Shown piece after piece: positions 10,190-56,998 of a DNA stretch of 64,000 nt. A model generated the notes under the pieces. The model worked only from the letters and a program-made list of their open reading frames with translations, was not told the origin of the DNA and did no database searches. Source of the stretch: Clostridia bacterium. GTDB lineage: Bacteria > Bacillota > Clostridia > Oscillospirales > Butyricicoccaceae. The position numbers were made by a program, and so were the translations under genes. Position 1 is the first letter of the stretch. Every line of letters starts with the position of its first letter. Location: positions 1 to 64,000 of the forward strand of contig JAFQUM010000004.1 of the NCBI GenBank assembly GCA_017408485.1, read 5' to 3'.

Positions 10190-10203
10190 CAGGAGGGCTT
10201 TTT

Positions 10204-11721
10204 ATGGAAAAGCTAATGGAGAAAATTGCAGATATAAACTCGGTGATAAACGAGTTCGTATGGGTCAAAATAGGCCTTATCATCCTCTTAGGCTGTGGGC
10301 TTTTGATGACCCTTGTCACCCGAGTTTTTCAACTGTCACATATAGGTCATTGGTGGAAAGAGACCATAGGCTCAATCTTTAAAAAGGATAGCGAAGCCAC
10401 CAAAAAGACCGACAAAAAGACCATTACTCAATTCCAGTCGTTGTGTACTGCCCTTGCAGCCACCATCGGTACAGGAAACATCGCAGGTGTGTCCGCCGCC
10501 ATCGTTATCGGCGGCCCCGGCGCGGTCTTTTGGATGTGGATCGCCGCATTTTTGGGAATGATGACCAAGTATTCAGAAACGGTTTTGGGCATATACTACC
10601 GCCGCCGCAACCGCGACGGCGAATGGTCGGGCGGTCCTATGTATTTTCTCCGCGACGGCTTGGGCAGTAAAAAGGGCTTTAAGCTTATCGGCGCGGCGCT
10701 GGCTTTTCTCTTTGCGGTCTTCGCTATCTTAGCCTCATTCGGCATTGGAAATATGGGACAGGTCAACAAAATAACCCTCAATCTGCAATCGGCATTCTTT
10801 AAGGGCGTAGACTTGGGCACTTTGGGTGGCATTCCCGTTATCAATCTCATCATCGGCTTTGCCCTGATGGCACTTACCGCACTCATTGTTATCGGCGGTC
10901 TGCAGAGAATTGCCGCCTTTGCCGAAAAGGTAGTGCCCATTATGGCGATTGCCTATATCATCGGCGCTTTGGTCGTCTTTTTTGTCAACATCGAAAACGT
11001 AGGCGCTATGTTTGCATCCATCTTCCGCTTTGCATTTGGTGTCAAGGCGGTGGCAGGCGGTGCGGCAGGCGTGGCAATCTCGCAGGTAATAACCCAAGGC
11101 TGCAAGCGCGGCATCTTCTCAAACGAGGCAGGACTCGGCTCCTCGGTAATGGTACACGCCTCCTCCAATGTAAAAGAGCCTGTCAAGCAGGGTATGTGGG
11201 GAATATTCGAAGTATTCTTCGACACCTTTGTTGTCTGCACTATGACTGCCATCGTTGTTCTTTCATCGGGAGAGATAAATCTTCAAACGGGACTTCCCTT
11301 TGACCCAAATCTTAATGATGCCACCCTTGTTTCCCAGGTCTTCGGCGGCATATTTGGCAAAGCGGGTGAAATGTTTATCGCACTTGCCATTCTCTTTTTT
11401 GCCTTTACCACCATTGTGGGCTGGTCACAATACGGCGCAAAGGCGGTGGAATATCTTATGGGACACAAAGCGGTCAAGGTCTATAAGATAATCTTTGTGC
11501 TGATGATAATCTCCGGTGCGGTTATGACATCCTCCTTGGCTTGGGATATTTCAGATACCTTTAACGGACTGATGATGATACCCAACCTTATCGGTGTTGC
11601 CGCCCTCTGCCCCTTGGTGGCAAAGCTTACCCGCAACTATATAAACCGCAAGATAAAGGGCAAAGAGGTCTCCCCCATGCTTTCCTATGACGAAAGCATC
11701 CAAAAAGAAATGGAAGAATAA
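10204..11721 (+). CDS. Sodium:alanine/glycine symporter (AGCS family)
   Basis: 505 residues with about 10-11 membrane segments; AGCS (AlsT/DagA) family. Landmarks are SLCTALAATIGTGNIAGV near residue 80, AAFLGMMTKYSETVLG, the GGPMYFLRDG loop and GIFSNEAGLGSS near residue 305. It imports a small neutral amino acid with Na+; the glycine riboswitch in front points to glycine as the physiological substrate. Start ATG 10204 has AGGAGGG 7 nt upstream. It is monocistronic, closed by a terminator at 11722-11751. Confidence 0.94.
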   Translation: MEKLMEKIADINSVINEFVWVKIGLIILLGCGLLMTLVTRVFQLSHIGHWWKETIGSIFKKDSEATKKTDKKTITQFQSLCTALAATIGTGNIAGVSAAIVIGGPGAVFWMWIAAFLGMMTKYSETVLGIYYRRRNRDGEWSGGPMYFLRDGLGSKKGFKLIGAALAFLFAVFAILASFGIGNMGQVNKITLNLQSAFFKGVDLGTLGGIPVINLIIGFALMALTALIVIGGLQRIAAFAEKVVPIMAIAYIIGALVVFFVNIENVGAMFASIFRFAFGVKAVAGGAAGVAISQVITQGCKRGIFSNEAGLGSSVMVHASSNVKEPVKQGMWGIFEVFFDTFVVCTMTAIVVLSSGEINLQTGLPFDPNLNDATLVSQVFGGIFGKAGEMFIALAILFFAFTTIVGWSQYGAKAVEYLMGHKAVKVYKIIFVLMIISGAVMTSSLAWDISDTFNGLMMIPNLIGVAALCPLVAKLTRNYINRKIKGKEVSPMLSYDESIQKEMEE

Positions 11722-16526: not shown

Positions 16527-18726
16527 TTTTCAGCCTTCTTTTCAGGGCACTGTAGCGTTTGGCAGGGTTGCCGTTTACCACCATCTGCCGCGTCATATCC
16601 TCCCTGCCCACTATTACCAACAGCTCCTTAGCTCGGGTGACGGCGGTATAGAGGAGATTTCTGCTGAGCAGACGGGCGGGACAATCAAAGATCGGAATTA
16701 TGACCGCCCGATATTCACTGCCCTGAGATTTGTGGGCGGTAATTGCAAAGGCGTGCTCTATCTCACCAAGCTCGGAAAAAGCGTATTCCGAAACCTTGGT
16801 ATCAAAGCGTATGGTCAATATCTTTCCGCGGCTGTCCACGCTTTCGATAACACCCGTATCACCGTTATACAGTCCCGCGCCCAATTCACGGGTCTGTATA
16901 TCCTGCCAGGTGCGGTTGTAGTTATTCTTGGTCTGCATTACCCTGTCCCCCTGACGAAAGGTCAGTTTGCCGACCTGCAGCTCGCCCTTTCCATTTTCGG
17001 GAGGGTTGAGCCGCGCCTGAAGAACCATATTCAGCTCCTCGGTACCGCAGGTATTGCGGCGGGAGGGACAAATGACCTGAACATCGGCAGGATCAATGCC
17101 AAATCGTTCGGGAATGCGGTTTGCGATCAGCTCACAGACCGCGGAAGATGCACCCTGCGCGGTGCGGTTTGAGGAAAAATAAAAATCCTTATTGTTTTTC
17201 TGCAAGGGCGGCATTTCGCCCTTGTTTATCATATGAGCATTCATTATAATGTCGCTGTCCTGCGCCTGACGGAATATTTCGGTAAGACGCACCGCAGGCA
17301 CAATGCCGCTGTCAAGCAGATCCTTAAAGAATCTGCCTGCTCCAACGGGAGGAAGCTGATCCACATCACCCACCAGCACAAGTCTTGCGTGGGGACGAAG
17401 TGCATCAAGGAGCGATGCGCTCATATTCAGATCTATCATGGATGCCTCGTCAACAATGATAACATCGGCATCAAGGGGATTTGATTTATTGCGCTTAAAG
17501 CTCATTCCGCCCCACTCATCGGGAACGGACTCCAACATTCTGTGCAAGGTGGATGCATCGCGATCGGTGACCTTGCTCATTCGGTCTGCCGCTCTGCCCG
17601 TAGGTGCGGCAAGCAGATATGTAAAGCCGCAACTTTCGAGCAGCTCTATGGCGGCAAGAAGGGCTGTTGTCTTTCCCGTACCGGGTCCACCCGTAATTAT
17701 TGAAATGCCGCTTTCAAAACAGCTCAAGATAGCCTCCTTTTGCAAGGGGACAAGGGAAAGCGCGGAGTTTTTCTCTATTTTTTCAAGTTTTTTAGTCAGT
17801 CCTATAGGCCTCTTGACCGGCATTTTTACAAGCCGTTTGGTTTCTTCGGTAGTTACTGTCTCCCAACGGAAAGCGCAGGCAAGATATACCGCGTCAATAT
17901 CTCCGTTTTGCACGCGGACGATTTTTCTATCCTCCTCGAGATAGACCAGCCGCTCCTCTAAGGCATCATTGGACACCTTTGCAAGGGACGCTGTCACCGC
18001 CACAAGCTTGTCCGCGGGAATGAAAACGTGTCCGTTCTGCAAATTGAAGTTCAGCTCATAGATAAGCGCTCCGTCAAGCCGCACCGCCGCCTCTTGATCT
18101 ATGCCAAACTCGCTTGCCAAGCTGTCGGCGGCGGAAAAACCCACCCCGAAAGGCTCTGCACAAAGCAGATAGGGGTCACGGGTGACAAAGTCTATCGCCT
18201 CGCTTCCGAACCGAGAAAGCAAGGGGGATGCAAAATAGGCGGGCAGACGGTGAAAAGCCAAAAACTCAATAAGCGCACGCAAAGCGCCCGCCTGGAGAAA
18301 GCTATTCTGTATGCGATATGCCTTTTCAAGAGAAATGCCCCGTATCTTCGCCAGCTTTTCAGGCTCGTTGGCAATTACCTCAAAGGCGCTTTCGCCAAAT
18401 CGCTCCACTATCATTTGAGCGGTCTTTACGCCGATTCCCTTGATACCGCCGCTGGCAAGGTATTCAAAAATGCCCTCAGTGTCTGTAGGCATATAGCGCT
18501 GATATGAGCGCACGGAAAATTGCCGTCCGTATTGGGGATGGCTGACATAATCGCCCTCGGCGTCAATGCACTCGCCGTTGCCGAGGAAGGGCATACTGCC
18601 GACGATGGTTATTAAATTGTCCTCGTCGTCCTTTACGCGTGCAACACAGTAGCCGGTCTCATCGCTTTTGAAAACGATATCCACCACTCTGCCCTGCAGA
18701 CGCTCAACGGAATAATCGTCGGTCAT
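16516..18726 (-). CDS. recD2: SF1B ATP-dependent DNA helicase RecD2
   Basis: 736 residues from ATG 18726, a usual RecD2 length. N-terminal OB-like and helix-hairpin-helix region (GIKGIGVKTAQMIVERFG, residue ~95), then helicase motifs I (ITGGPGTGKTTALL), II (VIIVDEASMIDL), III (LVGDVDQLPPVGAG), and V-VI (AFAITAHKSQGSEY, LLYTAVTRAKELL). It unwinds DNA 5'-3' and works in repair without RecBC. The ORF runs on to 18855, but that extension crosses the cysS terminator and the cysS end, so I reject it; GAGG lies 11 nt before ATG 18726. It heads recD2-comF-comM. Confidence 0.94.
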   Translation of the reverse strand: MTDDYSVERLQGRVVDIVFKSDETGYCVARVKDDEDNLITIVGSMPFLGNGECIDAEGDYVSHPQYGRQFSVRSYQRYMPTDTEGIFEYLASGGIKGIGVKTAQMIVERFGESAFEVIANEPEKLAKIRGISLEKAYRIQNSFLQAGALRALIEFLAFHRLPAYFASPLLSRFGSEAIDFVTRDPYLLCAEPFGVGFSAADSLASEFGIDQEAAVRLDGALIYELNFNLQNGHVFIPADKLVAVTASLAKVSNDALEERLVYLEEDRKIVRVQNGDIDAVYLACAFRWETVTTEETKRLVKMPVKRPIGLTKKLEKIEKNSALSLVPLQKEAILSCFESGISIITGGPGTGKTTALLAAIELLESCGFTYLLAAPTGRAADRMSKVTDRDASTLHRMLESVPDEWGGMSFKRNKSNPLDADVIIVDEASMIDLNMSASLLDALRPHARLVLVGDVDQLPPVGAGRFFKDLLDSGIVPAVRLTEIFRQAQDSDIIMNAHMINKGEMPPLQKNNKDFYFSSNRTAQGASSAVCELIANRIPERFGIDPADVQVICPSRRNTCGTEELNMVLQARLNPPENGKGELQVGKLTFRQGDRVMQTKNNYNRTWQDIQTRELGAGLYNGDTGVIESVDSRGKILTIRFDTKVSEYAFSELGEIEHAFAITAHKSQGSEYRAVIIPIFDCPARLLSRNLLYTAVTRAKELLVIVGREDMTRQMVVNGNPAKRYSALKRRLKNEY

Positions 18727-38518: not shown

Positions 38519-38661
38519 GTCGGCTCTGCCGACACCTTCACATTTGCAGAGCAAATATTTCATCCGCAGTATGCGGATTTCATCCACCTTTGGTGGATTT
38601 CATATTTTGCGTTTTGTCATTCTGAGCGAAGTCGAAGGATCTAAAACGCAAAATATTTCAT
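38519..38661 (-). repeat. Hairpin-spacer array A (minus-oriented)
   Basis: Between the kinase stop (38679) and the nucleotidyltransferase start (38495). On the minus strand: four copies of ATGAAAT alternate with hairpins. From 5': a long hairpin ATTTTGCGTTTT with a 27-nt loop (38604-38654); CCACC-aaa-GGTGG (38584-38596); CCGCA-tac-TGCGG (38564-38576); ATTTGC-tct-GCAAAT (38542-38556); then GTGAAGGT and the terminal hairpin GTCGGC-aga-GCCGAC (38519-38533). Spacers are at 38655, 38597, 38577 and 38557. It shares spacer core and terminal element with the arrays at 55.9-56.2 kb. Not a CRISPR: the hairpins, not the repeats, differ. Confidence 0.85.
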
Positions 38662-38678
38662 TGCGAAGCCTGCGAGCC

Positions 38679-53246: not shown

Positions 53247-54872
53247 ATGAATTATAACGACCATTATAATACTTGGAAAAAATCCCATTTTTTGTCGGAT
53301 CTTGAAAGAAACGAGCTTTTATCTCTCACCGACGAAAAAATTATAGAAGATCGCTTCTGCGCCCCCCTTTCTTTTGGCACTGCGGGCTTGCGCGGAATCG
53401 CGGAGATGGGACTCAATCGTCTCAACCGCTTTACCCTTTGTCAGGCGGTGCGCGCCTTTGGCAAGCATCTTGCAGGCAAGGGCACCGTGATAGTCTGCCG
53501 CGATGCGCGCCTATCCTCATCTGAGCTTGCCACGGTTGCCGCTTGTGCCCTTGCCGAGCTTGGCGTACCCATTTTGTTCTTCAAGGATGCCCGTCCCACC
53601 CCTCAGCTTTCCTTTGCGGTGCGGCATTTTAAGGCGGCAGGCGGCTTGAATATCACCGCAAGTCACAACCCCAAGGAGTACAACGGCTGTAAGTTTTACG
53701 ACGAAAAGGGCGCTCAGCTGGGCAACGACGACACCGACCGCATCAGCGAGATAATGGCGGGCATTCCAATGCTCGCGCCAATGCCCGAAAAAAGCTTTGA
53801 CGAATATTTGCAAGAGGGCAAGATAACCTATGCCGAGTGCGATGAGGAATACATCCAAGCGGTGCTTGACTGCCGCATCAATGCCAATGCTTTGGCAGAA
53901 AGTAAGCTAAGTGCCGTATATACCGCCTTCCACGGCGTAGGCGGAAGCATTATGCCCCAAGTGCTCAAGCGGGCAGGCTTTGAAAATGTATATTTTCAGC
54001 CTGAGCAGATGATTCCCGACGGAAACTTCCCCACTCTTGACAACCCTAACCCCGAGCACACACCGGGACTGGCTCTTTCTATAAAGCTTGCACAGGAAAA
54101 GAGTGCTGACCTCGTCTGTGCCACCGATCCCGATGCCGACCGCGCCGCCATTGCGGTAGCTGACGGCAAGGGTGGATATGTTGCCCTTTCGGGCAATCAG
54201 ACAGGCGCACTGCTTACCGATTATCTGCTTTCACAGACAAGCAGCCAAAAGCCTATGGCGATCATAAAGACCATCGTTTCCACGCCCCTTGTTGAAGATA
54301 TATGCGATCATTACGGCGCTCGGTGCTACAGCACCTTTACCGGCTTTAAAAATATGGCGGAAAAGCTTGAAGAGATCGAAAGCACCCAATATTGCCCTAT
54401 GTGCTTCGAGGAATCCATCGGCTATATGATAGGCTCCCACGTGCGGGACAAGGACGGCATTTCCGCCATTTTGATGGTCTGCGAAATGGCGGCATATTAC
54501 AAAAAGCAGGGCAAGAGCTTGCTCGATGTACTGAACGACCTATATACCCGCTACGGCAGATTTGAGGAGCATACCGTCAGCCTTTACCGCTATGGTGTTT
54601 CGGGGCAAAAGGAAATTGCCGAAATGATGAAAACGCTTCGCAATCAGCCTCCAAAAGCCATCGCAGGACTCAAGGTAGAGTCTATGGGTGACTACCTGAC
54701 AGGAAAAAACACCCATATCAGCGGTTCAAATGTGCTTGAGTTCAGGCTCAGCGGCGGTTCGAGATTGCTTATCCGTCCCTCGGGCACCGAGCCCAAGATA
54801 AAGATATACGCCCTTGCCCGTGATTTTGAGGCAAAGGCGCTGACCGATGCTATTAAAGCCTTGCTTTCCTGA
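53247..54872 (+). CDS. Phosphoglucomutase/phosphomannomutase
   Basis: 541 residues, alpha-D-phosphohexomutase of the PgcA type. Domain 1 active Ser in TASHNPKEYNGCKFYDEKG (~140), metal loop DPDADRAAIA (~293), sugar loop CFEESIGYMIG and phosphate loop RPSGTEPKIKIY. Interconverts sugar 1- and 6-phosphates, feeding nucleotide-sugar synthesis, which fits the divergent polysaccharide locus. Followed by the AKR gene at 13 nt. Confidence 0.94.
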   Translation: MNYNDHYNTWKKSHFLSDLERNELLSLTDEKIIEDRFCAPLSFGTAGLRGIAEMGLNRLNRFTLCQAVRAFGKHLAGKGTVIVCRDARLSSSELATVAACALAELGVPILFFKDARPTPQLSFAVRHFKAAGGLNITASHNPKEYNGCKFYDEKGAQLGNDDTDRISEIMAGIPMLAPMPEKSFDEYLQEGKITYAECDEEYIQAVLDCRINANALAESKLSAVYTAFHGVGGSIMPQVLKRAGFENVYFQPEQMIPDGNFPTLDNPNPEHTPGLALSIKLAQEKSADLVCATDPDADRAAIAVADGKGGYVALSGNQTGALLTDYLLSQTSSQKPMAIIKTIVSTPLVEDICDHYGARCYSTFTGFKNMAEKLEEIESTQYCPMCFEESIGYMIGSHVRDKDGISAILMVCEMAAYYKKQGKSLLDVLNDLYTRYGRFEEHTVSLYRYGVSGQKEIAEMMKTLRNQPPKAIAGLKVESMGDYLTGKNTHISGSNVLEFRLSGGSRLLIRPSGTEPKIKIYALARDFEAKALTDAIKALLS

Positions 54873-54885
54873 AGGAGGAAAAAAT

Positions 54886-55926
54886 ATGAAAATGAAGATC
54901 TTGGGCAGAACGGGGCTGCAGGTAACCGAAAACTCCTTCGGCGCGCTGCCCATTCAGCGCATTCCCGACGAGGATGCCGTTGCCCTTTTGCGCTATGCCT
55001 ATGACAGCGGAATAAATTTTTATGACACTGCCCGTTTTTACACTGACAGTGAACATAAAATCGGGCTTGCACTGTCCAATGTCCGCGAGAATATCATTCT
55101 CGCCACCAAGAGTATGGGCAGAACAAAAAGCTCCGCTTTGGCAGATCTGGAAATATCCCTCGGCAACCTGAAAACCGACTATGTGGATATTTTTCAGCTA
55201 CATAATATTACCGAATTGCCCGATATAAACGACCCCGAAAGCTCATATTATGCACTTATTGAGGCACGAAATAGCGGAAAATGCCACTTTATCGGCATTA
55301 CTACCCACCGATTGGAGCTTGCCATTGCCGCCGCGGAAAGCGGACTTTATGACACTGTGCAGTTCCCTCTGTGCTATATGTCCGCCGATCGCGATCTTGA
55401 GCTTATAGACATCTGCAAAAAGCACAACATCGGTCTTATCGCTATGAAGGGAATGAGCGGCGGCATCATTTCAAGCGCTGAAGCAGCCTATTCATTCTTT
55501 ACACAGTATGACAATGTTGTGCCCATTTGGGGTGTACAGAAGAAAAGTGAGCTTGACGACTTTTTAGGCTATGCCCAAAAGGGGATTGTCTTGGACGAAA
55601 GGCTCAAAAAGATCATCGAGGATGACCGCGAAAGGTTCAAGGATGACTTCTGCCGCGGCTGCGGATATTGTGAGCCCTGCCCCGTAGGAGTACCCTTGCG
55701 TGATGCGGCGCGTATGATCCCCATGCTCAACCGTGCTCCCTGGAAGGAGTACACCACCGAGGCTTGGCAGGAAAAAATGTCCCATGTTAAGGACTGCATC
55801 GACTGCGGCAGATGCGAAAGCCGTTGCCCCTATCAGCTGCAGTGCCGTCGTCTTATCCGCGAAAGCTATGATTATTTTATAAAGGTCTGCCGCGAAAAAG
55901 GCGTTTTAATCAACAAATACTTATAA
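54886..55926 (+). CDS. Aldo/keto reductase with 2[4Fe-4S] ferredoxin-like C-terminus
   Basis: 346 residues from ATG 54886 (AGGAGG 8 nt upstream). TIM-barrel AKR: KILGRTGLQVTENSFGALP, catalytic Tyr in DTARFYTDSE, ATKSMGR Lys, QLHNITE. The C-terminal ~80 residues carry CRGCGYCEPCPVGVP and CIDCGRCESRCPY, a clostridial-type pair of clusters. Such fused proteins are common in anaerobes; substrate unknown. Hairpin array B follows 6 nt after the stop. Confidence 0.9.
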   Translation: MKMKILGRTGLQVTENSFGALPIQRIPDEDAVALLRYAYDSGINFYDTARFYTDSEHKIGLALSNVRENIILATKSMGRTKSSALADLEISLGNLKTDYVDIFQLHNITELPDINDPESSYYALIEARNSGKCHFIGITTHRLELAIAAAESGLYDTVQFPLCYMSADRDLELIDICKKHNIGLIAMKGMSGGIISSAEAAYSFFTQYDNVVPIWGVQKKSELDDFLGYAQKGIVLDERLKKIIEDDRERFKDDFCRGCGYCEPCPVGVPLRDAARMIPMLNRAPWKEYTTEAWQEKMSHVKDCIDCGRCESRCPYQLQCRRLIRESYDYFIKVCREKGVLINKYL

Positions 55927-55931
55927 ATGCT

Positions 55932-56058
55932 TTCTCGCTTCGCGAGAAGATGAATTGCAGACAAAATCTGCATGAATTGACGGTAAACCGTCATGAATTG
56001 AGCTTGTCAGCTCATGAATTGCAGACGAAGTCTGCATGAAGGTGTTGCCTTCGGCAAC
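55932..56058 (+). repeat. Hairpin-spacer array B1 (plus-oriented)
   Basis: Order: hairpin TTCTCGC-ttc-GCGAGAA (55932-55948); ATGAATT spacers at 55950, 55972, 55993 and 56014, each followed by a perfect hairpin: GCAGA/TCTGC (55957-55971), GACGG-t-CCGTC type (55979-55992), GAGCT/AGCTC (56000-56013), GCAGAC-gaa-GTCTGC (56021-56035); then ATGAAGGT and the terminal hairpin GTTGCC-ttc-GGCAAC (56044-56058). Same plan as array A. GCAGA-type hairpin appears twice. Confidence 0.87.
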
Positions 56059-56069
56059 TTGTTATTAAG

Positions 56070-56214
56070 GTCGGCGGAGCCGACACCGACATGCAATCGC
56101 AGATTGCAATTCATGGCACAGCCAATTCATGATTTTCGGTAGAAAATCAATTCATGCACCTTTGGTGCAATTCATCTGCTTATCGTCAATTCATGCGCTG
56201 AAAGCGCAATTCAT
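56070..56214 (-). repeat. Hairpin-spacer array B2 (minus-oriented)
   Basis: On the plus strand: terminal hairpin GTCGGC-gga-GCCGAC (56070-56084), then hairpin GCAATC-gca-GATTGC (56093-56107) and six AATTCAT spacers (56108, 56124, 56149, 56169, 56188, 56208) separating GGC-aca-GCC, GATTTTC-ggta-GAAAATC, GCACC-ttt-GGTGC, a 12-nt non-palindromic unit (56176-56187) and GCGCT-gaa-AGCGC. Because spacers here are the reverse complement of those in B1, the two arrays face each other and could pair as one large cruciform. It ends 6 nt before the ribosome site of the next gene. Confidence 0.87.
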
Positions 56215-56233: not shown

Positions 56234-56998
56234 ATGGACTACTTATCCCAAGTCAATGCGCCCACTCTATATCTTATGGTCGGCGCAATACTTACTTTCG
56301 TCACCGTTATGTGCGTATTTTTCCTTGTACGCAGCTACAAGGTGGGAATTGCCATCGGTATGGACAAGGCTGTGCTTAAAAAGACCATACGCAACAGCGC
56401 AATTTTCACCATTCTGCCCTCGGTGGGCATTCTGGTCGGCGTTCTTGCGCTGTCGGGTGTTTTAGGCGCTCCCCTTTCGTGGATGCGTCTGTCGGTGGTC
56501 GGCGCGTTGCAATACGAATTGAACGTTGCAGACATTGCCGCAAAGGCATTGGGTCTTAAGGAGCTTGCCTTGGAATACCTTACCATCGAAGCTTACACTA
56601 CCATCTCGCTGGTTATGACGGTGGGCATTTTGGGCGGCGGTCTGCTGTGCATATTTATGCTTGGCAGATACCTTAAAAGATTCAGCAATAAACCCAAAAA
56701 GGCAGAATCCGCAGAGTCTGCACCCGATGCTCCCAAAAAGAAAAAGTCAAATCTTGGCAATATTGCGATGGTTGCAATGTTTATCGGTCTTTGCACCGCT
56801 TACATTTCTTCTTATATAGGCGGCTTTGCCAACGATACATCCAACTATCTGCCCCTGCTTACCGCAGGAGTTGCCGCCGCGGTAATGGCGGTCTTTACGC
56901 TTCTCTCCAAAAAGCTTAAATGGCTTGAAAACTTTGATGTTGCCTTGAGTATGCTTATTGCAATGGCTTCCGCGGTGCTTGCGGCTTACATATTTTAA
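56234..56998 (+). CDS. DUF5058-type membrane protein
   Basis: 254 residues from ATG 56234 (AGGAGAG upstream; the ORF start at 56129 lies inside the hairpin array). Seven likely membrane segments, with a Lys-rich cytoplasmic loop (KPKKAESAESAPDAPKKKK, about 175-193). FTILPSVGILVGVLALSGVLG is typical of DUF5058. It is first of three coupled genes: membrane partner at 57011 and M20 peptidase at 57700. Probably one half of a permease; substrate unknown. Confidence 0.82.
   Translation: MDYLSQVNAPTLYLMVGAILTFVTVMCVFFLVRSYKVGIAIGMDKAVLKKTIRNSAIFTILPSVGILVGVLALSGVLGAPLSWMRLSVVGALQYELNVADIAAKALGLKELALEYLTIEAYTTISLVMTVGILGGGLLCIFMLGRYLKRFSNKPKKAESAESAPDAPKKKKSNLGNIAMVAMFIGLCTAYISSYIGGFANDTSNYLPLLTAGVAAAVMAVFTLLSKKLKWLENFDVALSMLIAMASAVLAAYIF

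Follow-up and report, generated by a model that had tools for sequence, protein, structure and literature searches.

A mirror-order hairpin array in a Clostridia genome is probably a gene-less copy of a mobile element family linked to IVP four-helix proteins

The hairpin array at 55950-56214 of the stretch of DNA analyzed here (64 kb, referred to as the window) is probably a non-autonomous copy, without a gene of its own, of a family of mobile elements that carry an IVP gene, with the constant word between the hairpins as the recognition site of the protein. The family is dispersed, has recently been copied within the genome of origin (G000), and is missing at the orthologous site of two congeners. 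Each IVP clade has its own spacer word, and the word class is predicted by the protein sequence.

Layout of the array

The array occupies an intergenic site between an aldo/keto reductase gene (54904-55926, forward strand, start set at 54904 inside an ORF of 54847-55926) and a gene for a DUF5058-type membrane protein (56234-56998, forward strand), the domain name of which was taken from an earlier note on this DNA. It combines 12 hairpins with four spacers of ATGAATT and six of AATTCAT. One hairpin precedes the first spacer, while the left units account for four, the core for two and the right units for five. The hairpin ahead of the spacers, TTCTCGC-TTC-GCGAGAA (55932-55948, forward strand, located in the sequence), stands directly past the reductase stop codon at 55926. 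On the forward strand of the left half, ATGAATT copies at 55950-55956, 55972-55978, 55993-55999 and 56014-56020 are followed by the hairpin units GCAGACAAAATCTGC (55957-55971), GACGGTAAACCGTC (55979-55992), GAGCTTGTCAGCTC (56000-56013) and GCAGACGAAGTCTGC (56021-56035), respectively. The core (56036-56092, forward strand) comprises ATGAAGGTGT, a hairpin with the stem GTTGCC/GGCAAC (56044-56058), the AT-rich TTGTTATTAAG, a hairpin with the stem GTCGGC/GCCGAC (56070-56084), and ACACCGACAT. The hairpin unit GCAATCGCAGATTGC (56093-56107, forward strand) leads into the right half (56108-56214, reverse strand), where AATTCAT spacers starting at 56108, 56124, 56149, 56169, 56188 and 56208 enclose GGCACAGCC, GATTTTCGGTAGAAAATC, GCACCTTTGGTGC, CTGCTTATCGTC and GCGCTGAAAGCGC. 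Only 3 further occurrences of ATGAATT were found elsewhere in the window.

The earlier note had described this layout, and its spacers were all found at the positions it gave, its count of at least eleven short hairpins is covered by the 12 present, and its picture of a constant spacer with variable palindromes in two facing halves was upheld. Its statement that the stems always keep their own pairing applies to the other units but fails for CTGCTTATCGTC (56176-56187), which has no self-complementarity and is also unpaired, as GACAATAAGCAG, in a second copy on contig C7.

Because the left and right spacers are reverse-complementary, which makes the whole element strand-symmetric, one strand can fold in two ways, into separate hairpins or into a long rachis that bears hairpins on its sides. 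Of the two, the rachis was favored for both RNA (-114 vs. -84 kcal/mol) and DNA (-71 vs. -61). As RNA, the fold of the window array had a z-score of -8.3 against dinucleotide shuffles (0 of 100 as good). No Rfam family matched 55950-56214 at gathering score, and no rRNA match was found within the window.

Dispersal and mobility

The pattern ATGAATT-N6-24-ATGAATT was found at 39 places in G000 (1.33 Mb, 64% complete), compared with 0 for a reversed-pattern control, and at 41-81 places each in G001, G002, G017, G029, G046 and G055. It was abundant in three members of the genus and in several other genera of the order, and absent from most close relatives. A three-spacer pattern was matched by 26 of 394 genomes of the order, of which approximately 23 had truly palindromic units; the matches in G203, G298 and G181 had none and are put down to chance or simple repeats. 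Among named public records, real arrays were found mostly in metagenome-assembled genomes of gut and rumen Clostridia, including 'Christensenella sp. UBA3770'. Pattern matches on viral contigs were mostly due to chance, with real arrays on a few short contigs. A local oddity was rejected, given the 39 places in G000 and the pattern in many other genomes; the search of related genomes for spacers and hairpins, suggested in the earlier note, thus returned many carriers, with stems that covary.

The second copy, on C7, was identical to the window copy at 217 of 232 positions (93%), and its flanks were unrelated. The outer units GCGC.. and GACRATAAGCAG lie in the left arm of the C7 copy and in the right arm of the window copy, which indicates that outer units were exchanged between arms. 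Growth by unit addition, which the earlier note had raised as a possibility, is therefore only partly supported: whole elements are copied, and the two most similar copies differ by an exchange of outer units from one arm to the other. At the orthologous site, the gene pair that encloses the array in G000 was 62 and 61 bp apart in the congeners G001 and G003, respectively, and carried no array. Together with the recent C7 copy and the dispersed family, these empty sites support the proposal of a mobile palindromic element. In one clean comparison of filled and empty sites, no target-site duplication was apparent at the window copy. Conversely, an element between response regulator and sensor genes in G001 was absent from the matching slot of G000, where a different repeat sits.

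Some elements were themselves interrupted. Hairpin repeats of the form CTCCCTC...GAGGGAG were inserted within units of ATGAATT elements in L066 (9872-10048, 12409-12466, and the element at 18071-18437), and thereby split units, GCAATA...CTATTGC among them. A second type of core, ATGATTTCTCGCTTCGCTCC followed by GAATTGC, was seen in other families (L092, L102, L103, L046, L050, L301); this core unit was conserved in sequence and non-palindromic, unlike all other units.

Stem pairing

Stem statistics were calculated from genome loci only. The pool of all fetched loci was set aside, because collection scans give many chance ATGAATT matches, which makes pooled loci misleading for this purpose. A perfect outer stem of at least 3 bp was present in 140 of the 190 distinct units bounded by ATGAATT (letter shuffles: mean 4.6, maximum 10 in 200), and these units included 70 different stems. 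Among 31 distinct 15-nt units, 98.4% of stem cells paired, and 74 two-sided changes were counted vs. 1 one-sided change, which confirms that pairing is kept rather than stem sequence. When partners were slid by 1-3 columns in the same 31 units, pairing fell to 21-37%. Isolated mismatches were few, with 3 G.T and 3 A.C (small numbers, beside approximately 750 Watson-Crick pairs) and no wobble excess. Between copies and species, the order in which unit types follow one another was conserved, as were stem lengths and the outer G-C pair.

As wobble intermediates are almost absent, we favor upkeep of stem pairing at the DNA level, by selection on the hairpins or by template-switch correction, rather than selection on RNA. 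Quasipalindrome mutagenesis, in which template-switch correction is expected to give strict pairing without intermediates, could in principle maintain the palindromes at replication with no selection on pairing, leaving the spacer word and the layout as the only features of importance. This deserves appreciable weight, although we lean against it: strict Watson-Crick pairing with virtually no intermediates is what correction would yield, but correction alone does not account for the conserved stem lengths, outer G-C pair and order of unit types across copies and species, nor does it explain the constant word. It is compatible with mobility and is no alternative to it.

The IVP protein and its arrays

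A gene of approximately 128 aa lies between the two half-arrays in L061 of G000 and in L071, the orthologous site of G001; its product belongs to PF05635 (23S_rRNA_IVP; TIGR02436, four helix bundle protein) and is homologous to the solved structure PDB 2rld. The IVP is basic (pI 9.1), and no catalytic domain was recognized in it. Solo elements repeat the core frame of the window array, and the left part of this frame (ATGAAGGTGT with the adjoining hairpin) is common to solo copies and the IVP-carrying L061 and L071, so the window element looks like a gene-less derivative. The function of IVP/S23 four-helix proteins is not known, and homologues form a homopentameric ring (PMC4990558); IVP has a single mention among proteins listed as associates of CRISPR adaptation modules (PMC10910872).

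To survey IVP genes, PF05635 was searched in 60 relatives and the flanks were inspected. IVP genes adjoined arrays of the same layout with other constant words, such as ATGATAT, GTGAAGT, GTGATGT, ATGAAAT, AGTTATATT, TCGATAT, ATGTAAT and GCTAAAT. An array detector was positive in 38 of 68 regions upstream of IVP genes, vs. 0 of 216 shuffles and 6 of 96 background windows more than 1 kb away; several of the IVP regions that it missed had arrays visible by eye. At IVP genes from the rest of the phylum, 0 of 28 had arrays. Over 394 genomes, PF05635 co-occurred with ATGAATT arrays (24/26 vs. 156/368, Fisher P = 3.8e-7). The earlier note had suggested looking for a co-occurring protein family and had not named one; PF05635 is such a family. 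One array type occurs as three copies in tandem (1255-1898) directly upstream of an IVP gene in L050 (G054), with TGTCGAGACAGT hairpins between the copies.

No IVP of the ATGAATT clade was found in G002, G003, G017, G029 or G046, despite 14-70 ATGAATT places in these genomes. The absence of a cognate IVP from array-rich genomes may be due to draft gaps or to another mobilizer, and it is the main evidence against a strict requirement for IVP.

The protein predicts the word

On a tree of 70 IVP sequences, word labels required 22 changes, compared with 43.9 when shuffled (0 of 200 as low). Five ATGAATT IVPs from four families formed one clade (96/91), as did four GTTATAT IVPs (100/94). Across the labelled rows of the tree, words changed 16 times and host genomes 37 times. 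A second sample comprised 61 IVP loci. For 25 of 28 cases there, the nearest IVP of the first sample gave the correct word class (mean 5.6 and maximum 14 in 2000 shuffles), where word classes merge near-identical words and the 6-mer look-up was finished once the test loci had been looked at for the first time. Each of the three new ATGAATT loci (L453, L454, L502) was assigned to the right class. If array and gene are simply inherited together, as a single unit, word and protein would be equally linked, without binding.

Terminators, promoters and neighboring genes

An intrinsic terminator was located within 80 bp outside the array in 35 of 59 complete IVP arrays, vs. 6 of 254 random windows, and in 17 of the 35 the T-tract ended at the array edge. 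The terminators at which many IVP units start so exactly were mostly those of tRNA genes. A tRNA gene lay within approximately 110 bp of 33 of the 59. Solo ATGAATT elements were found at terminators in 12 of 65 flanks, vs. 53 of 675 ORF ends, which is rarer than for IVP units with other words. On the gene side, 34 of 74 IVP loci had a strong promoter (score of at least 9), with the -35 box mostly 7 nt or less from the last spacer. At such loci the array stands between terminator and promoter and is probably outside both transcripts. For ATGAATT IVPs there was mostly no good promoter between array and gene, so their array could be transcribed.

When eight loci of the GTGAAG family were aligned, the T-tract of the terminator and the stop codon of the IVP gene stood out as sharp borders. 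An ORF started within 40 nt past the IVP stop in 32 of 71 array-clade loci, and in a number of them stop and start overlapped by the 4 nt ATGA. AAGGAGAA encodes TAKEN, the conserved end of the IVP (e.g., L384, L464, L483), and the AAGGAG inside this sequence is a Shine-Dalgarno sequence for the next ORF. The ORFs past the IVP gene were variable and included endonuclease/exonuclease/phosphatase, MazG, nucleotidyltransferase, GNAT, cytidine deaminase, AhpC-type and other products. After the ORF, a 55-bp motif of two half-repeats (GTTACTTTTAGTCTTTCTTACC and CGCACCTTTTAGTCGCTCTTTCGC) was found in about a dozen loci. A profile of this motif gave further matches in L503, L369 and L521, all in regions around IVP genes, and no match in the window or in the unrelated sequence searched. 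The order of tRNA/terminator, array, IVP gene, variable small ORF and 55-bp motif was observed in L513, L514, L515, L517, L518 and L520, and in L515 the first unit was followed by a second with array, ORF and motif and without an IVP gene.

We tentatively propose that IVP-linked arrays might be the left-hand end of mobile gene cassettes of a new kind, made up of a terminator (usually that of a tRNA gene), the array, a promoter, the IVP gene, a variable small gene and the 55-bp 3' motif, sometimes in tandem or without IVP. The word would set the compatibility group, and the window element would be a stripped, gene-less relative.

Two further observations were made at individual loci. Downstream of the first unit of L515 (approximately 10200-10360), a fragment of the tRNA-Ser 3' end that contains a small insertion was present, as if by duplication of that end. 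In L358 (G029), the terminator and the first 20 or so bases of the element were repeated just past the IVP gene, like a flanking direct repeat.

Proposed mechanism and alternatives

For the probable mobile family we infer both the transposition chemistry and the binding by IVP, as follows. An IVP multimer would read the repeated spacer word, and in single-stranded or extruded DNA the hairpins would present these words. By binding, the multimer could mark, pair or protect the element and control the promoter of the IVP gene itself, and the array would serve both as the recognition end of the element and as the operator of the gene. Gene-less copies would move in trans, with strand transfer performed by a separate enzyme.

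It is somewhat unlikely that the arrays are instead moved by a conventional transposase (RAYT/Y1 or other) or a reverse transcriptase, with IVP as a passenger. Short palindromes are movable by Y1 transposases in REP/REPIN-RAYT systems (PMC3116915, PMC3733652), and such an agent would fit the several array-rich genomes without a cognate IVP and the Y1 genes of some carriers. However, among drafts that are 64-95% complete, the Y1/HUH transposase family (Y1_Tnp, PF01797) had no match in G000 and G003 and weak matches in G001 and G017, and RVT_1 had no match in G000-G003, G017 and G029. A passenger role is also at odds with a word class that is predictable from the protein, unless the whole unit is simply co-inherited. 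As specific partners, a Y1 transposase was rejected on its inconsistent presence among carriers, and a reverse transcriptase on the absence of RVT_1 across the genus sample.

An array and its IVP gene may also be regarded as a self-regulating or toxin-antitoxin-like module, in which the protein would bind the array at the promoter of its own gene, with solo arrays as decoys or orphan operators. The position of arrays just upstream of the IVP promoter, where the -35 box coincides with or is close to the final base of the array, and the pairing of one array with one protein both suit such a module. As a full account it is nevertheless unlikely, since dozens of dispersed solo copies, recent copying within a genome and empty sites require mobility anyway, and autoregulation has no need of 8-12 hairpins in mirror order.

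We regard as improbable the proposal that the arrays are expressed structured RNAs, either small RNAs or platforms in mRNA, with hairpins that offer single-stranded words to IVP or to some other RNA-binding protein. In its favor, Gut-1 (RF01706), a curated sRNA candidate, matches half-arrays with several different words; the genes on either side of the window array are co-directional, and its RNA fold is stable; and the name of the IVP family points to rRNA insertions. Against this, one-sided (wobble) changes are almost nil and G.T mismatches are no more frequent than A.C (only 3 each), many arrays at IVP loci stand behind a terminator and ahead of a promoter, where neither neighbor should transcribe them, and the whole element is strand-symmetric. 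The RNA-stability platform raised in the earlier note is thus disfavored as a primary role, as there is no wobble excess and the array is usually upstream of a recognizable IVP promoter.

Comparison with known systems

The combination of a constant 7-mer, variable palindromes and mirror halves differs from a CRISPR array, which has identical repeats, unique non-palindromic spacers and cas genes. A retroelement of the group II or retron type is set apart by the lack of RVT_1 in the six genomes listed above. MITEs and the BOX, ERIC and Correia repeats are, like the arrays, short, gene-less and dispersed, with inverted symmetry; the arrays appear to differ from them in having hierarchical palindromes and no apparent terminal inverted repeat of a known IS.

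The 23S rRNA intervening sequences (PMC4990558) resemble IVP elements in that an ORF of the IVP family lies within a stem-loop mobile element; the S23p/IVP ORF is present in the sister elements L061 and L071 and absent from the window copy. They differ in that the sites described here are between protein or tRNA genes (for the window copy, between the AKR and DUF5058 genes), the arrays are multi-hairpin with a clade-specific word, and the IVPs form a separate array clade.

REP/REPIN-RAYT systems (PMC3116915, PMC3733652) are the closest in logic. They share with the arrays short palindromes, inverted pairs, dispersed non-autonomous copies and a family-specific partner protein (here IVP) with a gene flanked by repeats. 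In contrast to them, the partner is a four-helix IVP and not an HUH tyrosine transposase, each element has 8-12 different hairpins on a constant word, and the GTAG/CGTC tag is absent beside the palindromes, the words being ATGAATT and relatives.

The earlier note knew of no named family with this layout, but Rfam Gut-1 (RF01706; Weinberg et al. 2010, PMC2864571) has it, with three hairpins on a constant UGAAAU spacer. The Gut-1 covariance model (at least 50 bits) had no match at 55950-56214, and its only match in the window, at 38552-38663 (reverse strand, Rfam), was half of a sister array with the spacer (A/G)TGAAAT. Gut-1 also matched arrays beside IVP genes in L397, L399 and L382. Gut-1 is thus half of an RTGAAAT array, modelled as RNA with no function given, and its model lacks the opposed second half, mobility, the IVP link and the other words.

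In the literature searched, no description was found of such arrays or of IVP with hairpin arrays. We rate the system of word array, IVP partner and insertion at terminator edges as categorically new, with one half-array family already catalogued as Gut-1. An IVP clade tied one-to-one to a readable DNA code, the 7-letter word between hairpins, makes IVP function directly testable, and Gut-1, an orphan Rfam family, becomes half of a mobile DNA element. The arrays represent an architecture of mobile elements whose partner protein is not a transposase, in uncultured Clostridia of gut and rumen, and in some cases variable accessory genes are carried behind tRNA terminators.
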